Part shown: positions 30,980 through 47,656 of the stretch, piece after piece
Layout: the number at the start of each line of letters is the position of its first letter
How positions within the stretch are numbered: the stretch's first letter is position 1
Origin: Hyphomicrobiales bacterium
GTDB taxonomy: Bacteria > Pseudomonadota > Alphaproteobacteria > Rhizobiales > Aestuariivirgaceae
DNA length: 64,000 nucleotides
Direction of reading: 5' to 3'
Assembly: GCA_025359265.1 (NCBI GenBank)
Contig: JANYHB010000003.1
Span: forward strand, 1-64,000
The notes under the pieces: model-generated
Told to the model about the DNA's origin: nothing
Database searches by the model: none
The model's input: only the letters and a program-made list of their open reading frames with translations
Made by a program: the position numbers and the translations under genes

Positions 30980-31750
30980 ATGAAAGCAGTTATTCTTGCA
31001 GGCGGCTTGGGCACACGAATTTCAGAAGAATCCAGCACCAGGCCAAAGCCGATGATTGAAGTGGGCGGCAAGCCCATTCTTTGGCACATCATGAAATACT
31101 ACGCCCATCATGGCATCACCGATTTTGTGATTTGTCTTGGCTACCGCGGCTATATGATCAAAGAATATTTCGCAAATTTTATTCTGCATTCGTCTGATGT
31201 AACTGTCGATGCGCGAAATGGAAAAATTGAATATCACAGCAACACGGCAGAGCCTTGGCGCGTGACGCTGATTGACACTGGCGAAGATACGATGACAGGC
31301 GGCCGCCTGAAGCGCATTGCAAAATATCTGACGCCAGGTGAAAGTTTTTGTATGACTTACGGTGATGGGGTATCAGATGTTGATATCACCAAGCTCATCG
31401 CATTTCACCAAAGCCACGGCAAACTGGCCACCGTGACGGCCGTGTTAACGCCGGGCCGCTTTGGCTTATTGGAACTTGAAGGCGATGTGGTCTCGCGCTT
31501 TGTAGAAAAGCCTCCGGGCGACAATGCCTTGATCAACGGCGGTTATTTTGTTCTCGAACCCGCGGTGCTGGATCGTATTGAGGGTGACGGCACGTCTTGG
31601 GAGTTTGAGCCGCTGGCCAGCTTGGCACGTGATCATGAGCTGGTAGCTTTTCGGCACCGGGGTTTCTGGCAACCGATGGACACGTTGCGCGATAAAATCA
31701 ATCTCGAAAAAATGTGGGACAGCGGCAAAGCGCCGTGGCGGGTTTTGTAA
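30980..31750 (+). CDS. rfbF: glucose-1-phosphate cytidylyltransferase
   Basis: A 256-residue nucleotidyltransferase. The N-terminal L-A-G-G-L-G-T-R-I-S-E-E is the sugar-nucleotide synthase loop in its RfbF form, followed by K-P-M-I-E-V-G-G-K-P-I-L-W-H, Y-G-D-G-V-S-D-V-D and F-W-Q-P-M-D-T. It makes CDP-glucose from CTP and glucose-1-phosphate, the entry to CDP-linked 6-deoxy and dideoxy sugars. Its usual partner rfbG lies 7.1 kb away on the other strand. Confidence 0.94.
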   Translation: MKAVILAGGLGTRISEESSTRPKPMIEVGGKPILWHIMKYYAHHGITDFVICLGYRGYMIKEYFANFILHSSDVTVDARNGKIEYHSNTAEPWRVTLIDTGEDTMTGGRLKRIAKYLTPGESFCMTYGDGVSDVDITKLIAFHQSHGKLATVTAVLTPGRFGLLELEGDVVSRFVEKPPGDNALINGGYFVLEPAVLDRIEGDGTSWEFEPLASLARDHELVAFRHRGFWQPMDTLRDKINLEKMWDSGKAPWRVL

Positions 31751-31849
31751 ACCAAGCCGGCAGCTATTCTACTTTTTGGGCTTGATGATTAAGCCTTGGC
31801 CAGTTGGCAGGGGCGCGATCGCAACGTTTTTGGATGCCGCAAAAGCATT

Positions 31850-32416
31850 TCACATATCATATTGGGCAACAAAATCCGCCCATAAATAATCATCAATGAT
31901 GATGACGGCACCCGGTACAATCCGATCCCAGAGCTGCTCAATTACCTTTTTTTCGCTGTACGCGTTGTTCAGATCCACCAGCAAATACGCAATCTTGTCT
32001 ATTGGAACTGTTGACAGCGATTCCGGCAGCACGCCGCGCACCAACTTGGCATTTTTGAACGGCTTGAAGTTGCGTTCCGCAATCGCAAACACATCCCGAT
32101 AAATATTCTCATTTGAGTGTCGTGACTTTGCCTGTTCTGCTTCGGCAACCGTCTCAAGAGGGATGCCGTCAAATGTGTCGAACAAGTAAAACTGGCGGTG
32201 GTGTTTATCGAAATCAAGGGTATGGCAAACAACAAGAGAAAACAGGCCAGTGTGAACGCCACACTCAACAAAGTCGCCTTCCAGCCCCAGTGCCTGCTGC
32301 GCGGCCCACAATGCTATCCGTGCACGCCAGCGCACGTCGGGCACGCCTGTTGGCCATCCTTCCACGTTAGCCTGCCGGGTCACTTCCCATGCCGCGGCAA
32401 AACTCGGTTCGTCCAT
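31850..32416 (-). CDS. TylF/MycF-type SAM methyltransferase, truncated at the C-terminus
   Basis: A 188-residue frame with the Rossmann core of the TylF/MycF/NovP O-methyltransferase family: E-G-W-P-T-G-V-P-D-V-R-W-R, G-D-F-V-E-C-G-V-H-T-G, F-D-T-F-D-G-I-P, Y-L-L-V-D-L-N-N-A-Y and the metal-binding I-I-I-D-D-Y. Members methylate sugar hydroxyls. It ends early at TGA (31850-31852); the next 26 in-frame codons encode the expected C-terminal strand with L-P-T-G-Q-G. The ATG at 32416 probably exists only because of an extra G that broke a fusion with the upstream coil. Confidence 0.75.
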   Translation of the reverse strand: MDEPSFAAAWEVTRQANVEGWPTGVPDVRWRARIALWAAQQALGLEGDFVECGVHTGLFSLVVCHTLDFDKHHRQFYLFDTFDGIPLETVAEAEQAKSRHSNENIYRDVFAIAERNFKPFKNAKLVRGVLPESLSTVPIDKIAYLLVDLNNAYSEKKVIEQLWDRIVPGAVIIIDDYLWADFVAQYDM

Positions 32417-32690
32417 AAATTATCATGCCGTCAGAAATATTGCTGTTGGCCTTGGTAACTTCGCCCCAAAGCCGCTCCACCTGTTTCAAACGTTCGCCAT
32501 TTTCGGCAACCAGGCTCTCATTCAATTCAACCTGCTTGGCATAGGCTGCCGAAAGGTGTTCAATCGTCGCAACGCGTTGGCGGTCACCCGCAACCAGGCG
32601 TTCAACTGTTTTTGTAAGTTCTAAATCAATCATATTGTGCTGATCAACATTGGCGACCAGCGCCGAATTTGAGTCTGAAAGCCGCTCCAC
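32367..32690 (-). CDS. coiled-coil fragment (second copy of the 210-bp duplication)
   Basis: A 107-codon frame that starts right after a TAG stop and holds copy A of the duplicated coil segment: L-E-L-T-K-T-V-E-R-L-V, R-Q-R-V-A-T-I-E-H-L. Copy A has CAG where copy B has TAG. Beyond the coil the frame runs about 50 bases into the start of the TylF methyltransferase frame and then stops. It is best seen as part of the broken composite gene, not as an independent protein. Confidence 0.45.
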   Translation of the reverse strand: MERLSDSNSALVANVDQHNMIDLELTKTVERLVAGDRQRVATIEHLSAAYAKQVELNESLVAENGERLKQVERLWGEVTKANSNISDGMIIYGRTEFCRGMGSDPAG

Positions 32691-32887
32691 CTATTTCAAA
32701 CGTTCGCCATTTTCGGCAACCAGGCTCTCATTCAATTCAACCTGCTTGGCATGGGCTGCCGAAAGGTGTTCAATCGTCGCAACGCGTTGGCGGTCACCCG
32801 CAACTAGGCGTTCAACTGTTTTTGTAAGTTCTAAATCAATCATATTGTGCTGATCAACATTGGTGACCAGCGCCAAATTTGAGTCTG
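32468..32887 (-). repeat. 210-bp in-frame tandem duplication
   Basis: Two copies lie head to tail, 32468-32677 (A) and 32678-32887 (B). I count five single-base differences over 210 bases, so the copies are about 98 percent identical and the duplication is recent. The unit is exactly 70 codons and keeps the coil frame. One difference turns CAG into the TAG stop at 32691-32693 in copy B; three change amino acids (Tyr/His, Ala/Thr, Ser/Leu) and one is silent. Confidence 0.95.
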
Positions 32888-33056
32888 CCAGCCGCACGAT
32901 CGTTGCCACGCGATCCTGCTCTGAGGCCATCAACCGCTCAATCGTTGCAACCCGCACTTGGTCCAACGCTGACAAACGTGCAATAGTTTCGGCCAGTTCG
33001 CGTTTGGAATTGGCGAGCTGTTCTGTGAGTTCTACAATATCGCTAGACCCACTCAA
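32691..33056 (-). CDS. coiled-coil fragment (first copy)
   Basis: A 121-codon frame from a TTG at 33056, rich in Leu, Glu, Ala, Arg and Val. A 14-residue unit recurs (R-V-A-T-I-E-R-L then six residues and R-V-A-T-I-V-R-L), two heptads long, as expected for a dimeric coiled coil. The same frame is open upstream of the TTG into the 3' end of the FkbM gene, giving a Pro-rich linker. No separate ribosome site is evident. Interpreted as the linker of the composite methyltransferase. Confidence 0.5.
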   Translation of the reverse strand: MSGSSDIVELTEQLANSKRELAETIARLSALDQVRVATIERLMASEQDRVATIVRLADSNLALVTNVDQHNMIDLELTKTVERLVAGDRQRVATIEHLSAAHAKQVELNESLVAENGERLK

Positions 33057-33058
33057 AT

Positions 33059-34141
33059 CTAACTCAATGGGCCATGAATTTTCTGGTCGCGGTGGTGCAG
33101 CAACTTGGGGCTTACCCCTTTGACAATGCTGAACACCGCCGAGTCAAGCTGGGCGCGGCTTTTGACAGCCAACAGATTGAAGCCATGTGGAGGGCCTGAA
33201 ATAATGGCGCTATCAATCTCCACAAGTTCAACTTTTTTTCCACTCATGGCTTCATTTCCCTGGTAATCGCGAATGGCAAAAACCTCATAGCCTTTTTCGA
33301 TCATCAAGGCGCAAAGTTCAGTGTGGCGCAGGCCGCGGCTCCAATCGGTATAGGCGGCGTGAATTTCACAGATAAGAGCGGGTGCTTGGCCCGCAGGCGC
33401 ACTGAGCGTTTCGGTGGCACCGCGCAGCGCTTCAAATTCACCGCCCTCAATGTCCAACATCACCACATCAATCTTTTTCAGGCCTTTTCCGCGCACGTAA
33501 GAGTCTATGCTGCGCGATGGAAAGGTCTTGGCGTTGGCGCTTTCGCCGAGTTTTGGTTTGGCATGGCTGTCATCGCCTGCTAGTTCAATGCGCACACCGT
33601 CCACCGACCAAAGCGCTTCAGCGTTGACGATAACATTCGTGATGCCGTTGTCGTCCAGGTTACTCTTGAGAACGGCCAAATTTTCAGGAGAAAGTTCAAA
33701 ACAATGGCATTGTCCGCCTTGTGCCAATACTTTGGCCACAAACAGCGCATGATCACCAAAATAGGCCCCACCAATAATCACGTTTTGTGCACCGGTTGAA
33801 AGACTCACAATGGAGCGGGTAGTCTGTGGCTCCCACACATGATCAGGGAAGTTGGGCTGTGCCATTAAAAATTCACGGGCGATGCGCGATGAATAGCGGA
33901 AATTGAATTTCAGTCCGTTTGAAACTTGGCGGGAGTACATAGAATTGTTGTCAACAAGGAAATCCACCAAAGGGCCGCTCAAGTCTTCGCGCAAGTTGCG
34001 GTCTGTGTTGGGTTGGTAGCGCTTTTCGATAGACACCAGGCAAGCGATAATTTCATCACGCGCGTCGGGATGCTCGGCTAAGAATTCACGGACAGATGCA
34101 AGAGTTCCATAAGATTTTGCGTTGCTTGCGTAAATATTCAC
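33059..34141 (-). CDS. FkbM-family SAM methyltransferase (N-terminal part of a composite gene)
   Basis: A 360-codon frame with a Methyltransf_21 (FkbM) domain at about residues 110-300: V-I-I-G-G-A-Y-F-G-D-H-A SAM loop, C-F-E-L-S-P-E-N, V-D-V-V-M-L-D-I-E-G-G-E-F and A-L-I-C-E-I-H. FkbM enzymes O-methylate sugars or polyketides. The N-terminal 100 residues are helical and specific to this protein. The start is a GTG at 34141 with GGAG upstream. The last about 22 residues are probably out of frame because of a one-base deletion at 33115-33118; the true protein likely continued into the coiled coil. Confidence 0.8.
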   Translation of the reverse strand: MNIYASNAKSYGTLASVREFLAEHPDARDEIIACLVSIEKRYQPNTDRNLREDLSGPLVDFLVDNNSMYSRQVSNGLKFNFRYSSRIAREFLMAQPNFPDHVWEPQTTRSIVSLSTGAQNVIIGGAYFGDHALFVAKVLAQGGQCHCFELSPENLAVLKSNLDDNGITNVIVNAEALWSVDGVRIELAGDDSHAKPKLGESANAKTFPSRSIDSYVRGKGLKKIDVVMLDIEGGEFEALRGATETLSAPAGQAPALICEIHAAYTDWSRGLRHTELCALMIEKGYEVFAIRDYQGNEAMSGKKVELVEIDSAIISGPPHGFNLLAVKSRAQLDSAVFSIVKGVSPKLLHHRDQKIHGPLS

Positions 34142-34390
34142 TCACACTCTCCAAAGTATTTCCGTTCGTATTGGTATAAGCTATAGTTCATGTCTGCACA
34201 TAACTTACCTGCGAAAAAAAGAAAAACCCCAAGTGTAGTCTTGCTCTACAGCATCTCATTTATAAGCAAAAGCTGAAAACGCGACTTTCATGAATTGATT
34301 TGTTCACTGATTGTTTCAGCTCCTATCGATTCATTGTCGCCACAGAACTCGTCCGCTAAAGTTTATTTTTATTGTGGGTTTTCAGAAAAA

Positions 34391-35656
34391 ATGTCCAATC
34401 CTCGGTTTAGTATTGTTATTCCCACGCGGTCTAGGCCCCATACGCTGCAATTCACCCTGCAAACATGTTTGAACCAAACCTTCCAAGATTATGAAGTTGT
34501 GGTATGTGATAACTTTGGACCAGCAGAAACCCAGGTAATGGTGAAAGCCTTTGGTTCTGCGCACATTGTTTACCACCGCTCAAACACACCCCTGTGCATG
34601 CGTGACAATTGGGAACTGGCTTACCGCCAAACGCGGGGCGACTATGTGATTTTTATCGGCGATGATGATGGCCTGGCCCCTTATGCGCTTTTTCAGCTTG
34701 ATGCCTTTTTGAAGCAGAATGATACCCCGGCCATCACCTGGAAGTGCGGGGCCTACACGTGGCCTGATGTGGCGCAGCGTGAACTGGCCAATCAACTGAA
34801 AATTCCCGTATCAAGGCACTTGGCTTGGCGCGACGGCCGCAGCGCCATTCGAGCGGTAGTGAATGGCCGCATGCCCGCCAGCTGGTTGCCCAACATCTAT
34901 CACGGCATGGTTTCGCGAAAGCTGATCGAGAAAATTCTGGCGCATTCCAACCAGCTTTTTGGCGGCTATATGGTGGATACTTATTCCAGCTTCGCTGTTG
35001 CGTATTTTGCAGGGCATTATGCCCAGATGAGTGCGCCCATGTCGATTTCTGGATTTTCAGGCGACAGCCACAACGTCGCATTCAATTATTTGCGCGGAAA
35101 GCACGCCAACACGCAACGGTATAGAGAAGATAATGCACGTGGTGGGGTTAAACTGCATCCATGGGTGCCCTATTTACCAACCAGTTGGACAGCGGTGGGA
35201 GATTCTTTTCTTGCGGCGAAGCAGGATTTATTCCCCGACGACAAAACCATGGTGTTTGATCGCCGGTTCTATATCAAAAAGCTGCTTGACAAACCGCCCA
35301 TTGATGCACTTTCGGATTGGCCTTTGATGGTGGGCGAAATCAGGCAAACGCTGGCAGACGATGCAGATTTAGCAGCGTGGTTTGAGAGACAAATTTTAAA
35401 AATTCTGCCAAAGGTCACCGCCCGGGAATCTTACCGCAATCTGTGGGAAGATGTTCGCGGCATTAGCCTTAATCTCGATTCGCGTGCCTTCTCCGTCAGC
35501 ACCGTTGCCGATGCAGTTGCTTTCATAGCAAGGGTGTTGGATTATTCGCAAATGCCAATAGCATGGACGCATGGAATAATTGAATATGTGGGCGTGGCGG
35601 AGCGTTGGAGAATAGGTAGACGGTTGGCCGCATTGAAAACCATTAATCCAAATTAG
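34391..35656 (+). CDS. GT2-family glycosyltransferase
   Basis: A 421-residue GT-A glycosyltransferase. After R-F-S-I-V-I-P-T-R-S-R-P-H-T-L it shows V-V-V-C-D-N-F and the metal site I-G-D-D-D-G near residue 100. The C-terminal 250 residues contain Y-H-G-M-V-S-R-K and are shared with the convergent glycosyltransferase at 35643-37103, so the two are paralogues. The ATG at 34391 starts the domain exactly. It is soluble, so it probably acts at the cytosolic face in glycan assembly. Confidence 0.88.
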   Translation: MSNPRFSIVIPTRSRPHTLQFTLQTCLNQTFQDYEVVVCDNFGPAETQVMVKAFGSAHIVYHRSNTPLCMRDNWELAYRQTRGDYVIFIGDDDGLAPYALFQLDAFLKQNDTPAITWKCGAYTWPDVAQRELANQLKIPVSRHLAWRDGRSAIRAVVNGRMPASWLPNIYHGMVSRKLIEKILAHSNQLFGGYMVDTYSSFAVAYFAGHYAQMSAPMSISGFSGDSHNVAFNYLRGKHANTQRYREDNARGGVKLHPWVPYLPTSWTAVGDSFLAAKQDLFPDDKTMVFDRRFYIKKLLDKPPIDALSDWPLMVGEIRQTLADDADLAAWFERQILKILPKVTARESYRNLWEDVRGISLNLDSRAFSVSTVADAVAFIARVLDYSQMPIAWTHGIIEYVGVAERWRIGRRLAALKTINPN

Positions 35657-37103
35657 ATCCGTGAAAATTGCGTCTCACATCTATGATGCGCTGTGCGACG
35701 CGGTTCTGGCGGTCAATTGGCGCAATTTCGCCATTCACAAGGCGTGGCACATATCTTTCCGGAAGAAATTTCGCAAGTATTTTGCGCCAAAATGGCGGCG
35801 CTCGGCCAACGGCTTCAGCAGCAACCGACCGCAGACCATAAGGCAAATTTGAGTACGCCGGATTCGGCTGAAGCTCAACGTCATAAATGGAGGAACCATC
35901 ACTGAGCAAGGCGTGGAGACCCAACATCGCACCTTCGACATCATCATTCAGACCCAAACCCAAGTGCCGCACGCGCAGCAGCATATCAGGATAGGGTGGT
36001 TCGTATTTAGACTCAGGTGCCTTGAATTTTTTCTTGGCGAGCCGCGCAAAGTGTTTGCGCACCTTTTGAAAAAGCACGGCATCAAGTTCTGACTTCGGCT
36101 TGGCTGTAAGCCAGGGGCCTATTGTCCACGGCTGTTTTTCGATTTCATCAAGTATGGCTTTAGTCCAAATCTCGCGGTCGACAGTCACATTCTCGGGCAG
36201 CAAACCGTGGGATTGTGCCACCTCCAAGCCACGCAGATCATGGTATCTGATGGTGCGAATATCTGATTGCCAATCGGCTTTCGCAGCGAATGGATCCTGC
36301 TGATTTTCTATGATCCATTTCTGGCCCTGATCAGAATTTTTTGATTTTTTCTCCACAACGCGCGACCATGAAACGCCAGCTGAATGACCAGACGTTCCAT
36401 AGATCGAAACCGGGTTTTCAACTTGTAGAATTTCATCGCAATGAAAGGCAATCAAGTTGTGGGCATAAACGTCCGGCATCAAATAGGAGAAAAAAACGCC
36501 GTTCGATTTGGCACGAATCCGGTCATAGACCTTGCGCGAAATCATGCCGTGATAAACCAAAACATTATCCCACGATCCAATGTTTTTTGCGGCTATTGTA
36601 TTGGCGGCTATTTCTTTCGCCGCACCATAGCGCCAGCCGCCGTAACATTTTGATGTGTAGATACGAGAAAAACCTTCGCCATCTGTCGAAAGTGTGGGCC
36701 ACACATAGTGCAGCAGATGCCAGCGCACAGCGTCTGCAGGCTTGCGACTTAACCGTTCAACAAGCCAATCCAGTGAACCCAGGCAATAGCCATCATCATC
36801 ACCAATAATGGAAAGGTAATCACCTGTCGCTGCGGCCAGGCCCAACTCAAAGTTATGGCGCTGGCTGGTGGAAAATTTGGACCGAGCATATCGAATACGC
36901 TGATCCCTTTTTTGTGCTGCCTTAACAACCTTGCGTGTTTCAGGCCCACTAAAATTATCCTGCACTAAAATTTCAATCTGGCCCGATTTGTGGTGCAGCA
37001 AGGCAGCAAGGCACGAGGCTAGTGTTTCAGGACGATCGCGCGTTGGAATAATAACCGAAATCAACGGTTTTGGTTTTGAAGATGTCTCCAAAAGTGAGGC
37101 CAT
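35643..37103 (-). CDS. GT2-family glycosyltransferase (paralogue of the convergent gene)
   Basis: A 486-residue GT2 enzyme: I-S-V-I-I-P-T-R-D-R-P-E-T-L, I-L-V-Q-D-N-F, and I-G-D-D-D-G. It shares W-x-x-x-x-Y-x-W-P and Y-H-G-M-I-S-R-K with the gene at 34391, with which its end overlaps by 14 bases. The ATG at 37103 has AAGGGAACCGG directly upstream; the frame is open to a TTG at 37160, but that would overlap the upstream gene. It follows the CmcI-type gene by 23 bases, as part of a minus-strand run from rfbG. Confidence 0.87.
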   Translation of the reverse strand: MASLLETSSKPKPLISVIIPTRDRPETLASCLAALLHHKSGQIEILVQDNFSGPETRKVVKAAQKRDQRIRYARSKFSTSQRHNFELGLAAATGDYLSIIGDDDGYCLGSLDWLVERLSRKPADAVRWHLLHYVWPTLSTDGEGFSRIYTSKCYGGWRYGAAKEIAANTIAAKNIGSWDNVLVYHGMISRKVYDRIRAKSNGVFFSYLMPDVYAHNLIAFHCDEILQVENPVSIYGTSGHSAGVSWSRVVEKKSKNSDQGQKWIIENQQDPFAAKADWQSDIRTIRYHDLRGLEVAQSHGLLPENVTVDREIWTKAILDEIEKQPWTIGPWLTAKPKSELDAVLFQKVRKHFARLAKKKFKAPESKYEPPYPDMLLRVRHLGLGLNDDVEGAMLGLHALLSDGSSIYDVELQPNPAYSNLPYGLRSVAAEAVGRAPPFWRKILAKFLPERYVPRLVNGEIAPIDRQNRVAQRIIDVRRNFHGSNLD

Positions 37104-37126
37104 TCCGGTTCCCTTGCCGCTTAAAT

Positions 37127-37897
37127 CTATGAAATCCTTTTCACAAAGGCGCTTGGCCAATAAGTCAGCCGCTCCCGCACAACACCTTCATTAAAGGGCC
37201 AGGCGGGCTCTTCAATAACGAAGTTGTTATTCTCTTTTGTGAAGGTGATGGCAGCTTGCTGCGGATTGGAATGTTTCCATTCCGGCTTGGTGCGTGGCGC
37301 ACCAGCCACTTCTTCCATGATGCCGTCTGATGCCACAATGTAACAACCTGGCGTGACCATTGGGCCATAAGCTCGAAGTTCTTCGAGAACGTGTTCCTTC
37401 GTGTGGTTGGAATCAAGCATCACCATCACTTTTTCGCCGGGTTTAATCAGGGCCTTCACTTCAGCCACGGTGTCCGGGTCAATCGATGAGCCGTCAACGA
37501 CAGTGATATAAGGGCTCAAGATATGCTCGCTGATGGCTTTGCGATTGTGCGGGCGAAGCTCAAGTTCCACGCCAATGACGCGGCCTTTTTCCATGGCCTT
37601 GAACAAGGAAGCATAAAATACCAATGAGCCGCCGTGGGCCACGCCAGTTTCAATCAACACATCAGGCTTGTGTTCCCAAAGCACTTCTTGAATGCGCAGC
37701 ACGTCCTCTGGAAGTTGGATGAACGGACGGCCCATCCATGAAAAAGCATAAATGTATTTTACATCCCAGCTGACACGGCGCCAAGCGCGGTTGAGCAATT
37801 CAAAAGCCTCAGGTGTGGTGAGGGCATGGCGAGCTATTTCTGTACCAGCATCGTCAATTTCAGCCACATAGTTTTTCTTGTCATCAAAAACAATCAT
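37127..37897 (-). CDS. cephalosporin hydroxylase (CmcI)-family protein
   Basis: A 256-residue protein of the CmcI family (PF04989), a SAM-binding Rossmann fold. Signatures: W-M-G-R-P-F-I-Q-L-P-E-D, L-I-E-T-G-V-A-H-G-G-S-L, G-V-E-L-E-L-R-P-H-N and V-M-L-D-S-N-H-T-K-E-H-V. Despite the name, members in glycan loci are thought to be sugar methyltransferases. It overlaps the upstream SDR-type gene by four bases. Confidence 0.88.
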   Translation of the reverse strand: MIVFDDKKNYVAEIDDAGTEIARHALTTPEAFELLNRAWRRVSWDVKYIYAFSWMGRPFIQLPEDVLRIQEVLWEHKPDVLIETGVAHGGSLVFYASLFKAMEKGRVIGVELELRPHNRKAISEHILSPYITVVDGSSIDPDTVAEVKALIKPGEKVMVMLDSNHTKEHVLEELRAYGPMVTPGCYIVASDGIMEEVAGAPRTKPEWKHSNPQQAAITFTKENNNFVIEEPAWPFNEGVVRERLTYWPSAFVKRIS

Positions 37898-38730
37898 TTC
37901 ACACCTTGGTTTGTTAGTTGCTTTATAATATTTGGCAAATGGATCGCCGGATTAGTGGAAGGCAGGGCGAATTCGCATGCTGCGCGGGAGATGTCAATTT
38001 GTGGGAACGTCACAATTTGTCCGTTGGGTTTGAAATGCACTTTGAAGCCTGCGGTTTGCAAAACGTCAGCAATTTGTTGGTGCGTGAAGTTGGTTCCACA
38101 AGCCACATTATAAAGCCTCGATGCTCCACTTCGCGAAATTGCGATAAGCATCGCGGCAGCGTCTTCCACAGCAATATAATCTTTTGCAGAGCTGGGGAAT
38201 TGGCCGATGGTTACTTCGCCTTTTTCCACCGCATCACGCAGCACGGCCGTCATGAATAAATTGGATTGATCTTGCGCACCATAGACATTGGACATTCTTG
38301 CAACGCGGATAAGCGGGTTGTCAAAGGCCATACACAGGCTTTCGCCGGCAAGTTTTGAGATATTGTACACGTGGTCAACACTGGTTGGCCGAACCAGAAG
38401 TGGGGTGTCTTCATTGGTTGATGTGGCGCCATCGTAAACCCGCGCAGAAGAAAGATAAAGAAAGCTCTCATAGCGATAATGCGTCAGGGCGTCATGCAAG
38501 CGTAGCACCTGCAAATCAAACGTCTCCAGCAAACGCTTGCGAAAATCTGCCGTCATTCCGATACAGAAGATCACATGGCCAAGATCACTTCCCGCAGTTG
38601 GCCAAGATGCGCGGCCAACTTGGGTCACAGTGGCCCCGCTGGCCCTCAATTGGCGCGTAAGTTCAGAACCTACAAACCCCAACCCACCAAAAATTGTGTA
38701 CTTTGATCCCAGCAAACTAATTTCCGTCAA
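37894..38730 (-). CDS. NAD-dependent epimerase/dehydratase-family protein
   Basis: A 278-residue extended SDR. N-terminal F-G-G-L-G-F-V-G-S-E-L binds the cofactor (the first Gly of the usual T-G-G-x-G is kept), S-S-A-R-V-Y and Y-N-I-S-K-L-A-G-E give the catalytic Ser/Tyr/Lys. In this locus it may reduce or epimerise the 4-keto group made by RfbG. The start is probably the TTG at 38730; no ATG occurs before the cofactor motif, so the exact start is uncertain. It overlaps the CmcI-type gene. Confidence 0.82.
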   Translation of the reverse strand: MTEISLLGSKYTIFGGLGFVGSELTRQLRASGATVTQVGRASWPTAGSDLGHVIFCIGMTADFRKRLLETFDLQVLRLHDALTHYRYESFLYLSSARVYDGATSTNEDTPLLVRPTSVDHVYNISKLAGESLCMAFDNPLIRVARMSNVYGAQDQSNLFMTAVLRDAVEKGEVTIGQFPSSAKDYIAVEDAAAMLIAISRSGASRLYNVACGTNFTHQQIADVLQTAGFKVHFKPNGQIVTFPQIDISRAACEFALPSTNPAIHLPNIIKQLTNQGVK

Positions 38731-38888: not shown

Positions 38889-39992
38889 TCAGATTGACGA
38901 AGCTACGAGCGCGGAGGTTGGGACCAGCGAAGATTCAAAGGCACTGATTTGTTCAATGGTTTTGGCGTACATGTTCGCGCCGTCGCGGTGGGCCAGTCTC
39001 CACTCCACCGTCATATCCAATGCCTTGCTAAGGTTAAGGCGGGGCAGCCAACCCAATTCAATTTCGGCCTTGGTCGAATCCAATCGCAATAGTTTTGCCT
39101 CATGGAGCTTTAGCGGGTCTTCCACAAAACTAAAGCCATCTTCAAATCCAAATTTGCGGCACAGATAATCCACCACCTGTGCCACCGGGGCCTCGTCTTC
39201 GCGCCTGGGTCCGAAGTTCCACGCTTGCGGCGCTGTGGCGCGATACTGCCAAATATGTTCCACCGCCCGCAAATAGCCAAACAATGGTTCAAGCACATGT
39301 TGCCAAGGCCGCACGGCATTTGGATTTCGAATGTCGGGTTTTTTGTTGCCCATCAGGGCCGCAAATACGTCTGTCATCAAACGGTCTTCTGCCCAATCTC
39401 CCCCACCAATCACATTGCCAGCGCGAGCTGATGCAACAACAGCTCCACCAGTCTTGAAATAGGAGCGGGCGTAAGCTGCAGTTACAAGTTCAGCACAGCC
39501 CTTGCTGCTGCTATAAGGGTCATGCCCGCCCATTGCGTCACTCTCGCGGTAGGCCCATATCTGTTCCACATTCTCGTAACATTTATCTGTGGTGACAATC
39601 AGCGTTGCTTGCACCGATGGGGTGCTACGCGCCGCTTCAAGCACATGCACAGTGCCCATAACGTTGGCTGCAAAGGTTTCGACAGGCTCAGTATACGACA
39701 ATCGCAAAATCGCCTGCGCCGCAAGATGCAAAATAATGTCGGGTTTGAATTTTGTGATCGCCGCTTTGAGTTTTTCCAAATCTCGAATATCGCCAATTTC
39801 GTGTTCAATAAAATCGCCAACCCTGGCCAAGGTAAACAGGTTCGTTTCAGTTGGCGGCGGCAGTGAAAAGCCGTGCACAATGGCACCAAGCTTGTGCAGC
39901 CAAAGCGCCAGCCAGCCACCCTTGAAGCCGCTGTGCCCAGTGAGAAAAACGCGTTTCCCGCGCCAAAAAATATCTTGTGGTTTGTCTATCAT
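38889..39992 (-). CDS. rfbG: CDP-glucose 4,6-dehydratase
   Basis: A 367-residue extended SDR with the RfbG form of the cofactor motif, L-T-G-H-S-G-F-K-G-G-W-L, then T-D-K-C-Y-E-N, the catalytic Y-S-S-S-K-G-C-A-E-L and R-P-W-Q-H-V-L-E-P. It converts CDP-glucose to CDP-4-dehydro-6-deoxyglucose. It points away from the rfbC-like gene and leads a minus-strand run (rfbG, SDR, CmcI, GT2). No rfbH (3-dehydratase) is in the window, so a 6-deoxyhexose rather than a 3,6-dideoxyhexose is the likely product; inference. Confidence 0.94.
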   Translation of the reverse strand: MIDKPQDIFWRGKRVFLTGHSGFKGGWLALWLHKLGAIVHGFSLPPPTETNLFTLARVGDFIEHEIGDIRDLEKLKAAITKFKPDIILHLAAQAILRLSYTEPVETFAANVMGTVHVLEAARSTPSVQATLIVTTDKCYENVEQIWAYRESDAMGGHDPYSSSKGCAELVTAAYARSYFKTGGAVVASARAGNVIGGGDWAEDRLMTDVFAALMGNKKPDIRNPNAVRPWQHVLEPLFGYLRAVEHIWQYRATAPQAWNFGPRREDEAPVAQVVDYLCRKFGFEDGFSFVEDPLKLHEAKLLRLDSTKAEIELGWLPRLNLSKALDMTVEWRLAHRDGANMYAKTIEQISAFESSLVPTSALVASSI

Positions 39993-45665: not shown

Positions 45666-47555
45666 TTACCTAATTTCTCCCACCGCCACGGGTGCTGGCG
45701 TTTTTGAATGAATTTTGGCAGCAGCTTCATTTCCAGTAAATGCCACATCAATCATGCAGGCATCAAGCAACGGGCCTTCTTTTACGCCCGCTTTAATGCA
45801 AATCGCTTGCACACGTTTGGCCAGTTGCGGGTCAAGGTCCTTGGCGTAAAAAGGCTTGGTTGGAATTCCTGAATTCACCCTTTCACCACACACGTTGAGC
45901 ATGGATTCTGCCGGCTTCACGCGCCAACTTTCACCATAGCGGCCATAGAATTCTTCAAATGCAAACGGGACTTTTAACAAATTTCCTTCGCGTGTTGCCA
46001 CCAAGTTTGGATCGTTTTTGGCGTTCACCAGCAATCCTTGCGCATCAATCGGCCATTGACCCAGGCCAACTTTCACATCGATATAATTCGCATTGACATC
46101 AGCGCGCACCCAATCGCCACTTGCTCCTCGAATGAGATAGCTATTTCCCTTCAATGTTATCTGCGTGCCGTCTGGAAATAGTCGCGCCCCTCCGCTGCGC
46201 ATCGCCAGGGGCTTGCCATTCACGAAAACGCGCTGCGGCGTCAAACAAACAGCGACTTTGGTTTTGCCCATTTGTGTTGCGATTGCTGAATTAACCGCAG
46301 CATTGGGCCAATTGGGTGCTCCGGAAATCTGGCGGTTTTGAACGACGAAACCGGCTTTTGTTTCGAGAAGTTCAAAATCTCCCCTAGCCTGAAAATCATA
46401 GAGCAGCCCGCTTAGCGTTGTCAGATGGGTATCGCCAACTGAAGTGGAAGCAGCGCAATTTGACGGTGCGCCACCAGCGATGCTCTCAGCAAAAATCAAA
46501 GCGGGGCCTGGTTGTGAGCCTACAGGAGCCGTCGGCCCAAAACTGAGATTATTTTTCTCAGCGGTGAAACCAACTGCACGGCAAATGGGAAGCCCATTAG
46601 ACCCGAAATTAATGCGCGTTCTGGTAACCAGCGCTGCGGTATTATTGAAACTGGCAGTGCCACCGCCGCTGCCATTGCCGCCGTCACCAAAGATATTAAA
46701 TTCGGCGATGGTCCAACCCGATGAAGCGTTGACTGAATTGTCGCCATTGCGTGAGAAGGCTGTGCCGCCAATAATCATTGTAATACTGTCTGCACCAGCA
46801 CTGGCAGCACCTGTGAGGGAGACTTGCCCCAGGTTTGTAATAGGAACAGCAGTTGTCGGCACAGCCCCGCTGAGATTGCTCAGCTGTACACAATCCTGAT
46901 GGCTGCCAACCATGAAGAATTGAAAGTTTGCCGGGCAGGCGGTACCAAAATCAGTCAACCAGTATTGAATGAAAGCGCGGTGCGACACATTGTTATTTTC
47001 AAATACAAATTGCTCCCAGCCTTTGCATGCGGCGTTTGCTGAAGTAGAGCATGTTGTAGTGGTGAAGAATTCGGTATTGATTTGCAGTGTGTAAGCATTG
47101 GCAATCGAAGCCCCGGCGTTTCCGATTGGCCCGGATTCGCTGGTCACGTTCGTTAGTGTGTCAAAAGAGCCCGTAGCCGACGAAATGATGCCGCTGGGGG
47201 CTTGCGCGGCGATGTCATCGCCATTGCCAACAATATCGGGGACGATGCCAGCTCTCGGCAGCAAGGGCATTTTAGGCCCGGCAACGCATGCAATCTCTTG
47301 CCATTCGAGCGATGGAAATTTGCTGGTGAAGCAACCCTTTTTGGGCTGCGGAACCGTGCCGATCTTGGCGCGCCAATCGGACTGGGCTCCATATTCTTCT
47401 TCGGAAAGCAGTGGTTCCACCCGAACTGCCGCAGCAACGGCAGTTTTTGTTTTATCGGCTGCAAATGCATGTGGCATTAGCAAAAACGCCGACAAGACGA
47501 GCGCCATTAATTTTGCAAGATTGAAATGGATTGTGGAGCGCGAATAATAATTCAT
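45666..47555 (-). CDS. large secreted protein with VWD-like domain
   Basis: A 629-residue protein with a signal peptide (cut after A-F-A, about residue 32), a long Ser/Thr/Gly/Asn-rich beta region (residues 90-380, with six or more cysteines), and a VWD-like segment near residues 395-440 (V-G-D-T-H-L-T-T-L-S-G-L-L-Y-D-F, F-E-L-L-E, V-V-Q-N-R). A GGGAGG ribosome site precedes the ATG at 47555; an in-frame ATG at 47651 gives a non-export start. The role is not known: adhesion or matrix are possible. It follows the beta-barrel gene at 47702-49033 in the same direction. Confidence 0.75.
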   Translation of the reverse strand: MNYYSRSTIHFNLAKLMALVLSAFLLMPHAFAADKTKTAVAAAVRVEPLLSEEEYGAQSDWRAKIGTVPQPKKGCFTSKFPSLEWQEIACVAGPKMPLLPRAGIVPDIVGNGDDIAAQAPSGIISSATGSFDTLTNVTSESGPIGNAGASIANAYTLQINTEFFTTTTCSTSANAACKGWEQFVFENNNVSHRAFIQYWLTDFGTACPANFQFFMVGSHQDCVQLSNLSGAVPTTAVPITNLGQVSLTGAASAGADSITMIIGGTAFSRNGDNSVNASSGWTIAEFNIFGDGGNGSGGGTASFNNTAALVTRTRINFGSNGLPICRAVGFTAEKNNLSFGPTAPVGSQPGPALIFAESIAGGAPSNCAASTSVGDTHLTTLSGLLYDFQARGDFELLETKAGFVVQNRQISGAPNWPNAAVNSAIATQMGKTKVAVCLTPQRVFVNGKPLAMRSGGARLFPDGTQITLKGNSYLIRGASGDWVRADVNANYIDVKVGLGQWPIDAQGLLVNAKNDPNLVATREGNLLKVPFAFEEFYGRYGESWRVKPAESMLNVCGERVNSGIPTKPFYAKDLDPQLAKRVQAICIKAGVKEGPLLDACMIDVAFTGNEAAAKIHSKTPAPVAVGEIR

Positions 47556-47627
47556 ACAAACCTCCCATGTGATGAGTTGGCAGTAAAGAATTAAGACAAT
47601 TCGAACGATCAAATATTGGATGTGGCA

Positions 47628-47656
47628 TTCATACGATTGTTTCAACGTCACTGCAA
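47628..47656 (-). promoter_or_regulatory. candidate promoter of the VWD-type gene
   Basis: On the minus strand TTGCAG (47651-47656) and TATGAA (47628-47633) are 17 bases apart, giving a leader of about 65 bases before the ATG at 47555. The match is moderate. Confidence 0.3.

Follow-up and report, generated by a model that had tools for sequence, protein, structure and literature searches.

The 64,000-nt window analyzed here, by which we mean the whole stretch of DNA under study, carries four open reading frames in nearly gapless succession on its minus strand (33059-34141, 32691-33143, 32367-32690, and 31850-32419), and these very probably represent two genes: an intact gene for an FkbM-family methyltransferase, followed by the wreck of a gene for a coiled coil joined to a TylF-type methyltransferase (here called coil-TylF). 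Both FkbM and TylF are families of SAM-dependent O-methyltransferases. An earlier note on this DNA had correctly recognized the row of four minus-strand frames, with an FkbM domain in the first and a TylF domain in the last, but had read all four as one broken double-methyltransferase gene. In the two-gene reading, the second gene would start just after the FkbM gene and would have encoded a coil of ~206 residues (its present length, duplication included) joined to the N terminus of a sugar O-methyltransferase of the SAM-dependent TylF type. A recent duplication that kept the heptad register would have added ten heptads to the coil, and three lesions would then have broken the gene: a stop codon within the coil, the net loss of 20 nt at the entrance to the TylF domain, and a stop codon ahead of the TylF C terminus. 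We infer this order of events from the present state of the gene.

The FkbM gene (33059..34141, minus strand) encodes a protein of 360 aa from a GTG start preceded by GGAG, and the protein scores well above the curated cutoffs for both PF05050 (E 1.1e-14; 55.3 bits versus 22.7) and TIGR01444 (65.4 bits versus 37.7). Its C-terminal end was studied in five near-full-length homologues, with identities to the window protein of 56% (L019), 46% (L099), 44% (L100), 42% (L097), and 41% (L098). L019 came from a contig search that returned 11 relatives, the other ten being local domain matches; L099 and L100 came from 385 genomes of the class, in which six non-self genomes matched, four of them only locally; and L097 and L098 came from 19 plasmid records, the other 17 of which fell below 80% coverage. 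All five homologues are collinear with the window protein through positions 33115-33118, where the earlier note had placed a missing base in a run of C residues, and all five end 0 to 7 residues past the end of the window protein. They also have in common the motif SPK(L/I)L.H(R/K)D, which spans these positions and reads SPKLLHHRD... in the window. Because the homologues run collinearly through the supposed lesion and stop at the same place, the FkbM gene is, by these sequence comparisons, an intact gene separate from coil-TylF, complete, uninterrupted, and matching its homologues at the C-terminal end. We accordingly rejected a frameshift at the 33115 C run, and since the FkbM frame is conserved there, the Pro-rich linker that repair of this lesion had seemed to yield comes from translating coding DNA in the wrong frame. 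A search by sequence returned no relative of the FkbM protein with a solved structure at E 0.01.

The genes around the four frames form a CDP-hexose glycan cluster of the CDP-6-deoxyhexose type. It includes rfbF, encoding glucose-1-phosphate cytidylyltransferase (30980..31750, plus strand; TIGR02623, 432.6 bits versus a cutoff of 300.25), and rfbG, encoding CDP-glucose 4,6-dehydratase (38889..39992, minus strand; TIGR02622, 453.7 bits versus 278.45), both of which exceed curated equivalog cutoffs. Between them, in addition to the frames discussed here, lie genes for two GT2 glycosyltransferases (34295..35656, plus strand, and 35643..37160, minus strand; both PF00535), a CmcI/rhamnosyl O-methyltransferase-like protein (37127..37897, minus strand; PF04989, E 3.6e-65; 47% to L099:6939-7703), and an NAD-dependent epimerase/dehydratase (37894..38730, minus strand). 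The CmcI-like protein reaches 77.1 bits against an NCBIfam equivalog cutoff of 400 and thus falls below it; the epimerase matches PF01370 over profile positions 95-240 only, has homologues in L019, L097, L098, L099, and L100, and aligns with that of L019 over almost its full length. No ABC transporter was found among the 26 neighboring ORFs scanned with Pfam, and an Rfam scan gave no match. A 661-aa frame elsewhere in the window (45666-47651, minus strand) is without a Pfam match at E 0.001. The assembly yielded no 16S rRNA; its argininosuccinate synthase shares ~82% identity with those of Rhizobium, Shinella, and Sinorhizobium, which suggests a Rhizobiales-like alphaproteobacterium. In the stretches of 11 to 19 kb fetched around each of the five FkbM homologues, relatives of both rfbF and rfbG are present in four, and an epimerase relative lies beside or near the FkbM gene in all five (in L100 one gene intervenes); a CmcI-like relative occurs as well only in L099. 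The L099 genome, which belongs to the same class, holds on one contig a compact block (L099:6939-13126) in the order CmcI-like, epimerase, FkbM, GT2-like, rfbF, and rfbG, a gene set much as in the window without TylF. Judged by its family and its neighbors, the FkbM protein most likely adds methyl groups to a surface-glycan sugar or to a precursor of such a sugar, and nothing suggests that it depends on coil-TylF.

The second gene begins with the coil, whose two frames, 32691-33143 and 32367-32690, have no Pfam match. The earliest ATG, GTG, or TTG at which coil-TylF could start is a TTG at 33056, separated by two bases from the FkbM stop codon; that this TTG is the start is a guess, and no clear ribosome site accompanies it. 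From there to 32439 (32439..33056, minus strand) the coil frame shows a hydrophobic periodicity of 3.5 residues that was reached by none of 10,000 shuffles, and even with the second copy of the duplication left out, the periodicity of the first 127 residues was reached by only 1 of 10,000. AlphaFold2, run on the single sequence with the TAG codon read as Q, modeled the coil as a single helix over residues 3-205 (mean pLDDT, 93.3; pTM, 0.37). Both the sequence and this predicted structure indicate that the coil is genuine. It includes a recent tandem duplication of 210 nt (first, 5' copy, 32678..32887; second, 3' copy, 32468..32677; both on the minus strand), in which each copy amounts to ten heptads and the two are 98% identical. 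All five differences between the copies are transitions, one silent, three missense, and one nonsense, a number too small to prove relaxed selection. The nonsense change is the premature TAG at 32691..32693 (minus strand), in the first copy, and the sister copy has a sense codon there, as the earlier note had observed. Descent of the coil from some other gene in the window was rejected, since only the coil's own two frames matched it. Searches of 396 further genomes of the order, and of phages, plasmids, and viral contigs, turned up nothing related to the coil; it may nevertheless have come from phages, plasmids, or viruses outside those collections.

The TylF domain (31850..32416, minus strand) is recognized with confidence, its frame (31853-32419) matching PF05711 with an E value of 2.1e-18 and 67 bits against a curated cutoff of 23; its nearest relatives are L104 (56%) and L059 (47%). 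The TGA codon at 31850-31852 occupies an alignment position that is conserved in L059, L104, and L105, and the sequence beyond it (31769..31849, minus strand) continues in the same frame as a normal TylF C terminus (...LPTGQGLIIKP..), aligning with all three, so that the earlier note's reading of this stop holds. At the other end of the domain, the frame changes from that of the coil to that of TylF within 32405..32430 (minus strand). The earlier note had attributed this change to an extra G at 32413-32414; the change of frame is real, but a single extra base accounts for the frame only and was rejected as the whole change, because the segment is also 20 nt short compared with the three nearest homologues. 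Between D-G-M and the conserved F that follows, the window has 25 nt and L059, L104, and L105 each have 45 nt (15 residues), and the distance from the motif to W-R is 94 nt in the window versus 114, 120, and 114 nt, respectively, in these three homologues, and 96 to 105 nt in the 26 scored homologues. Both the altered frame and the shortness of the segment are accounted for by a net loss of 20 nt.

The same junction ties the coil to the TylF domain. TylF homologues carry an N-terminal motif, D-[GNS]-[LMI], which was found in 26 of the 28 that were scored, namely those matching the W-R anchor, with homologues lacking the anchor pattern omitted. Of the two exceptions, L030 does carry the motif, the anchor having fallen at another place, whereas L034 starts too far along to include it. 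In the window, the coil frame reads S-D-G-M and the TylF frame reads DEPSFAAAW..., so that, unlike the situation in the nearest homologues, the N-terminal D-G/D-N motif and the C-terminal LPTGQG motif are not in one frame. Because the N-terminal motif of TylF sits in the coil frame, the proposal that coil and TylF were once one chain, also made in the earlier note, is well supported at the sequence level, and the domain itself would be a decayed member of the TylF O-methyltransferases. The ancestral chain is one that we infer from the single copy in the window: coil-TylF DNA is absent from all other 36 genomes of the genus, and no intact copy was found. As assembled, coil-TylF contains three breaks, two stop codons and a frame change, and the earlier note was right to call it broken.

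To place the coil-TylF arrangement among its relatives, we collected 63 distinct TylF-like frames from the fetched loci. Eight of these (205 to 285 aa), which lack the pattern by which the core was located, went unscored and are too short for such a coil; among the 55 that were scored, 18 have at least 50 residues ahead of the core. In our judgement none of the 63 is a coil-fused TylF. This judgement on the 18 long N termini draws on Pro+Gly content (7 to 25%, versus 2.5% in the window coil), on domain matches (L106 and L108), and on reading by eye (L016 and L030); periodicity alone does not single out the window coil, given that in six of the 18 (L016, L105, L032, L033, L018, and L030) no more than 10 of 300 shuffles reached the observed periodicity, and that peak power was 1.79 for the window coil versus 1.57 for L030. 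Several of these proteins have other domain arrangements. L106:493-2184 (plus strand), from the same order, encodes Methyltransf_11 and TylF in one 564-aa frame, a double methyltransferase. L016:1354-2604 (minus strand), from the same genus, ends at a contig edge and is probably the same fusion; Pfam finds only TylF and Methyltransf_24 in it, and its upstream part was assigned by eye from its similarity to L106. In L108:1420-2613 (minus strand) a Sel1 repeat precedes TylF in one 398-aa frame, and in L030:1405-3486 (minus strand) TylF ends a frame whose first part resembles a polysaccharide flippase by eye, Pfam again matching only TylF and Methyltransf_24. The closest homologue on a viral contig, L059:4842-5636 (plus strand; 47%), is a phage-carried sugar methyltransferase gene that lies on the opposite strand between genes for a phage internal virion protein and a tail-fibre-type protein.

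That the four frames are the remains of a single FkbM-coil-TylF gene is highly improbable. They share a strand with hardly a gap and the FkbM and coil frames overlap, as would suit one broken gene, but upstream of 33056 the coil frame contains no ATG, GTG, or TTG and is simply the wrong frame of the FkbM coding sequence. In addition, neither a coil nor a TylF gene was matched in the surroundings of any of the five FkbM homologues (E 0.01; frames of at least 80 aa), and none of the five continues into coil and TylF; a sixth stretch, L101, fetched for its TylF, has TylF and no coil (E 0.01). The double-methyltransferase reading falls because all five near-full-length FkbM homologues are standalone genes with their ends at this point, the very observation that the earlier note had named as contradicting it.

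The breaks might instead be errors of sequencing or assembly, with coil-TylF intact in the organism and working as a coil-tethered O-methyltransferase, perhaps a ruler-like one. We regard this as unlikely, although the sequence past every break has kept its conservation and the coil shows no loss of form, as would be expected were decay absent or very recent, and a 98% tandem repeat is a spot prone to short-read assembly mistakes. Against it stand the occurrence of three separate breaks within ~1.3 kb and the coincidence of the frame change with 20 missing nucleotides, a kind of change that base-calling errors do not typically produce. Moreover, 24 of the 26 neighboring ORFs match Pfam, some partially, and no family was seen split over two adjacent frames. 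This is moderate evidence against misassembly, because an ORF by definition lacks internal stops and only the domain matches bear on assembly quality. There is also very little to recommend the idea that the frames are small functional genes, a 188-aa TylF from the ATG at 32416 plus a free coil peptide, or that the stops are read through by programmed recoding. The TylF frame does have that ATG and overlaps the coil frame, but the nearest TylF relatives have residues ahead of the corresponding point, the D-G motif included, and the short frame lacks the conserved TylF C terminus. The stop codons of 25 ORFs (24 neighbors and FkbM) comprise 9 TAG, 9 TGA, and 7 TAA, and this use of all three argues against recoding; reading of TGA or TAG as an amino acid was rejected on the same count.

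The preferred reading, an intact FkbM gene followed by a broken coil-TylF gene, settles the gene boundary, such that FkbM should be annotated as intact and only coil-TylF as a likely pseudogene. Coil-TylF probably makes no working enzyme now, and because no intact homologue was found, nothing shows that the fusion ever worked. It appears to bring known parts together in a new combination of domains, in what is probably a dead gene: among the open-licence PMC papers searched we found none that combined FkbM, TylF, and coiled-coil, nor any for TylF with methyltransferase and coiled-coil or for FkbM with O-antigen, coiled-coil, and methyltransferase.

Compared with known systems, the window FkbM protein is a conventional member of its family (PF05050/TIGR01444), above both curated cutoffs, with the same C-terminal end and nothing of note to set it apart; it stands alone with similar neighbors in a Beijerinckiaceae MAG (L019), in Cupriavidus (L097 and L098), and in two genomes of the same class (L099 and L100). 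With the TylF/MycF/NovP proteins (PF05711), whose solved relatives by sequence include 5i10, 4cdz, NovP (2wk1), and MycF (4x7u), the window shares the core domain, but its C-terminal part is stopped off, its N-terminal motif is out of frame, and a coil stands in front. The Methyltransf_11-TylF fusions (L106 and probably L016) likewise have the TylF N terminus joined to another domain, although their partner is a class I methyltransferase domain, neither FkbM nor a coil.

A parallel in architecture is offered by the WbdD-type chain terminators (Escherichia coli O9a and O8, Klebsiella pneumoniae O3 and O5, and O7 ORF6), which combine a methyltransferase and a long coil in one chain, with the catalytic part N-terminal and the coil after it; the O9a, O3, and O7 enzymes include a kinase, the O8 and O5 enzymes are methyl-only, and in WbdD the coil separates the catalytic domains from a polymerase-recruiting, membrane-associated end (PMC3482155, PMC11231755). 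By analogy with these proteins, coil-TylF might have acted as a ruler. It is a long shot, but conceivable, that this lineage until recently had a coil-tethered TylF in which tandem duplication was adjusting the length of the coil by whole heptads. Such an enzyme would have modified or terminated glycans in a ruler-like way, with a polarity opposite to that of WbdD and a methyltransferase domain of another family, and it may still be intact in sister strains. The discovery of an intact enzyme would point to a further origin of coil rulers, from a methyltransferase family other than that of WbdD, and would make the ten-heptad duplication a naturally occurring length mutant. Coil-TylF has in common with the WbdD-type terminators a methyltransferase and a long coil in one chain, encoded in a glycan cluster; we do not class it with them because the order is reversed, with the coil first and TylF after it, because no kinase domain was matched, and because the gene is broken.
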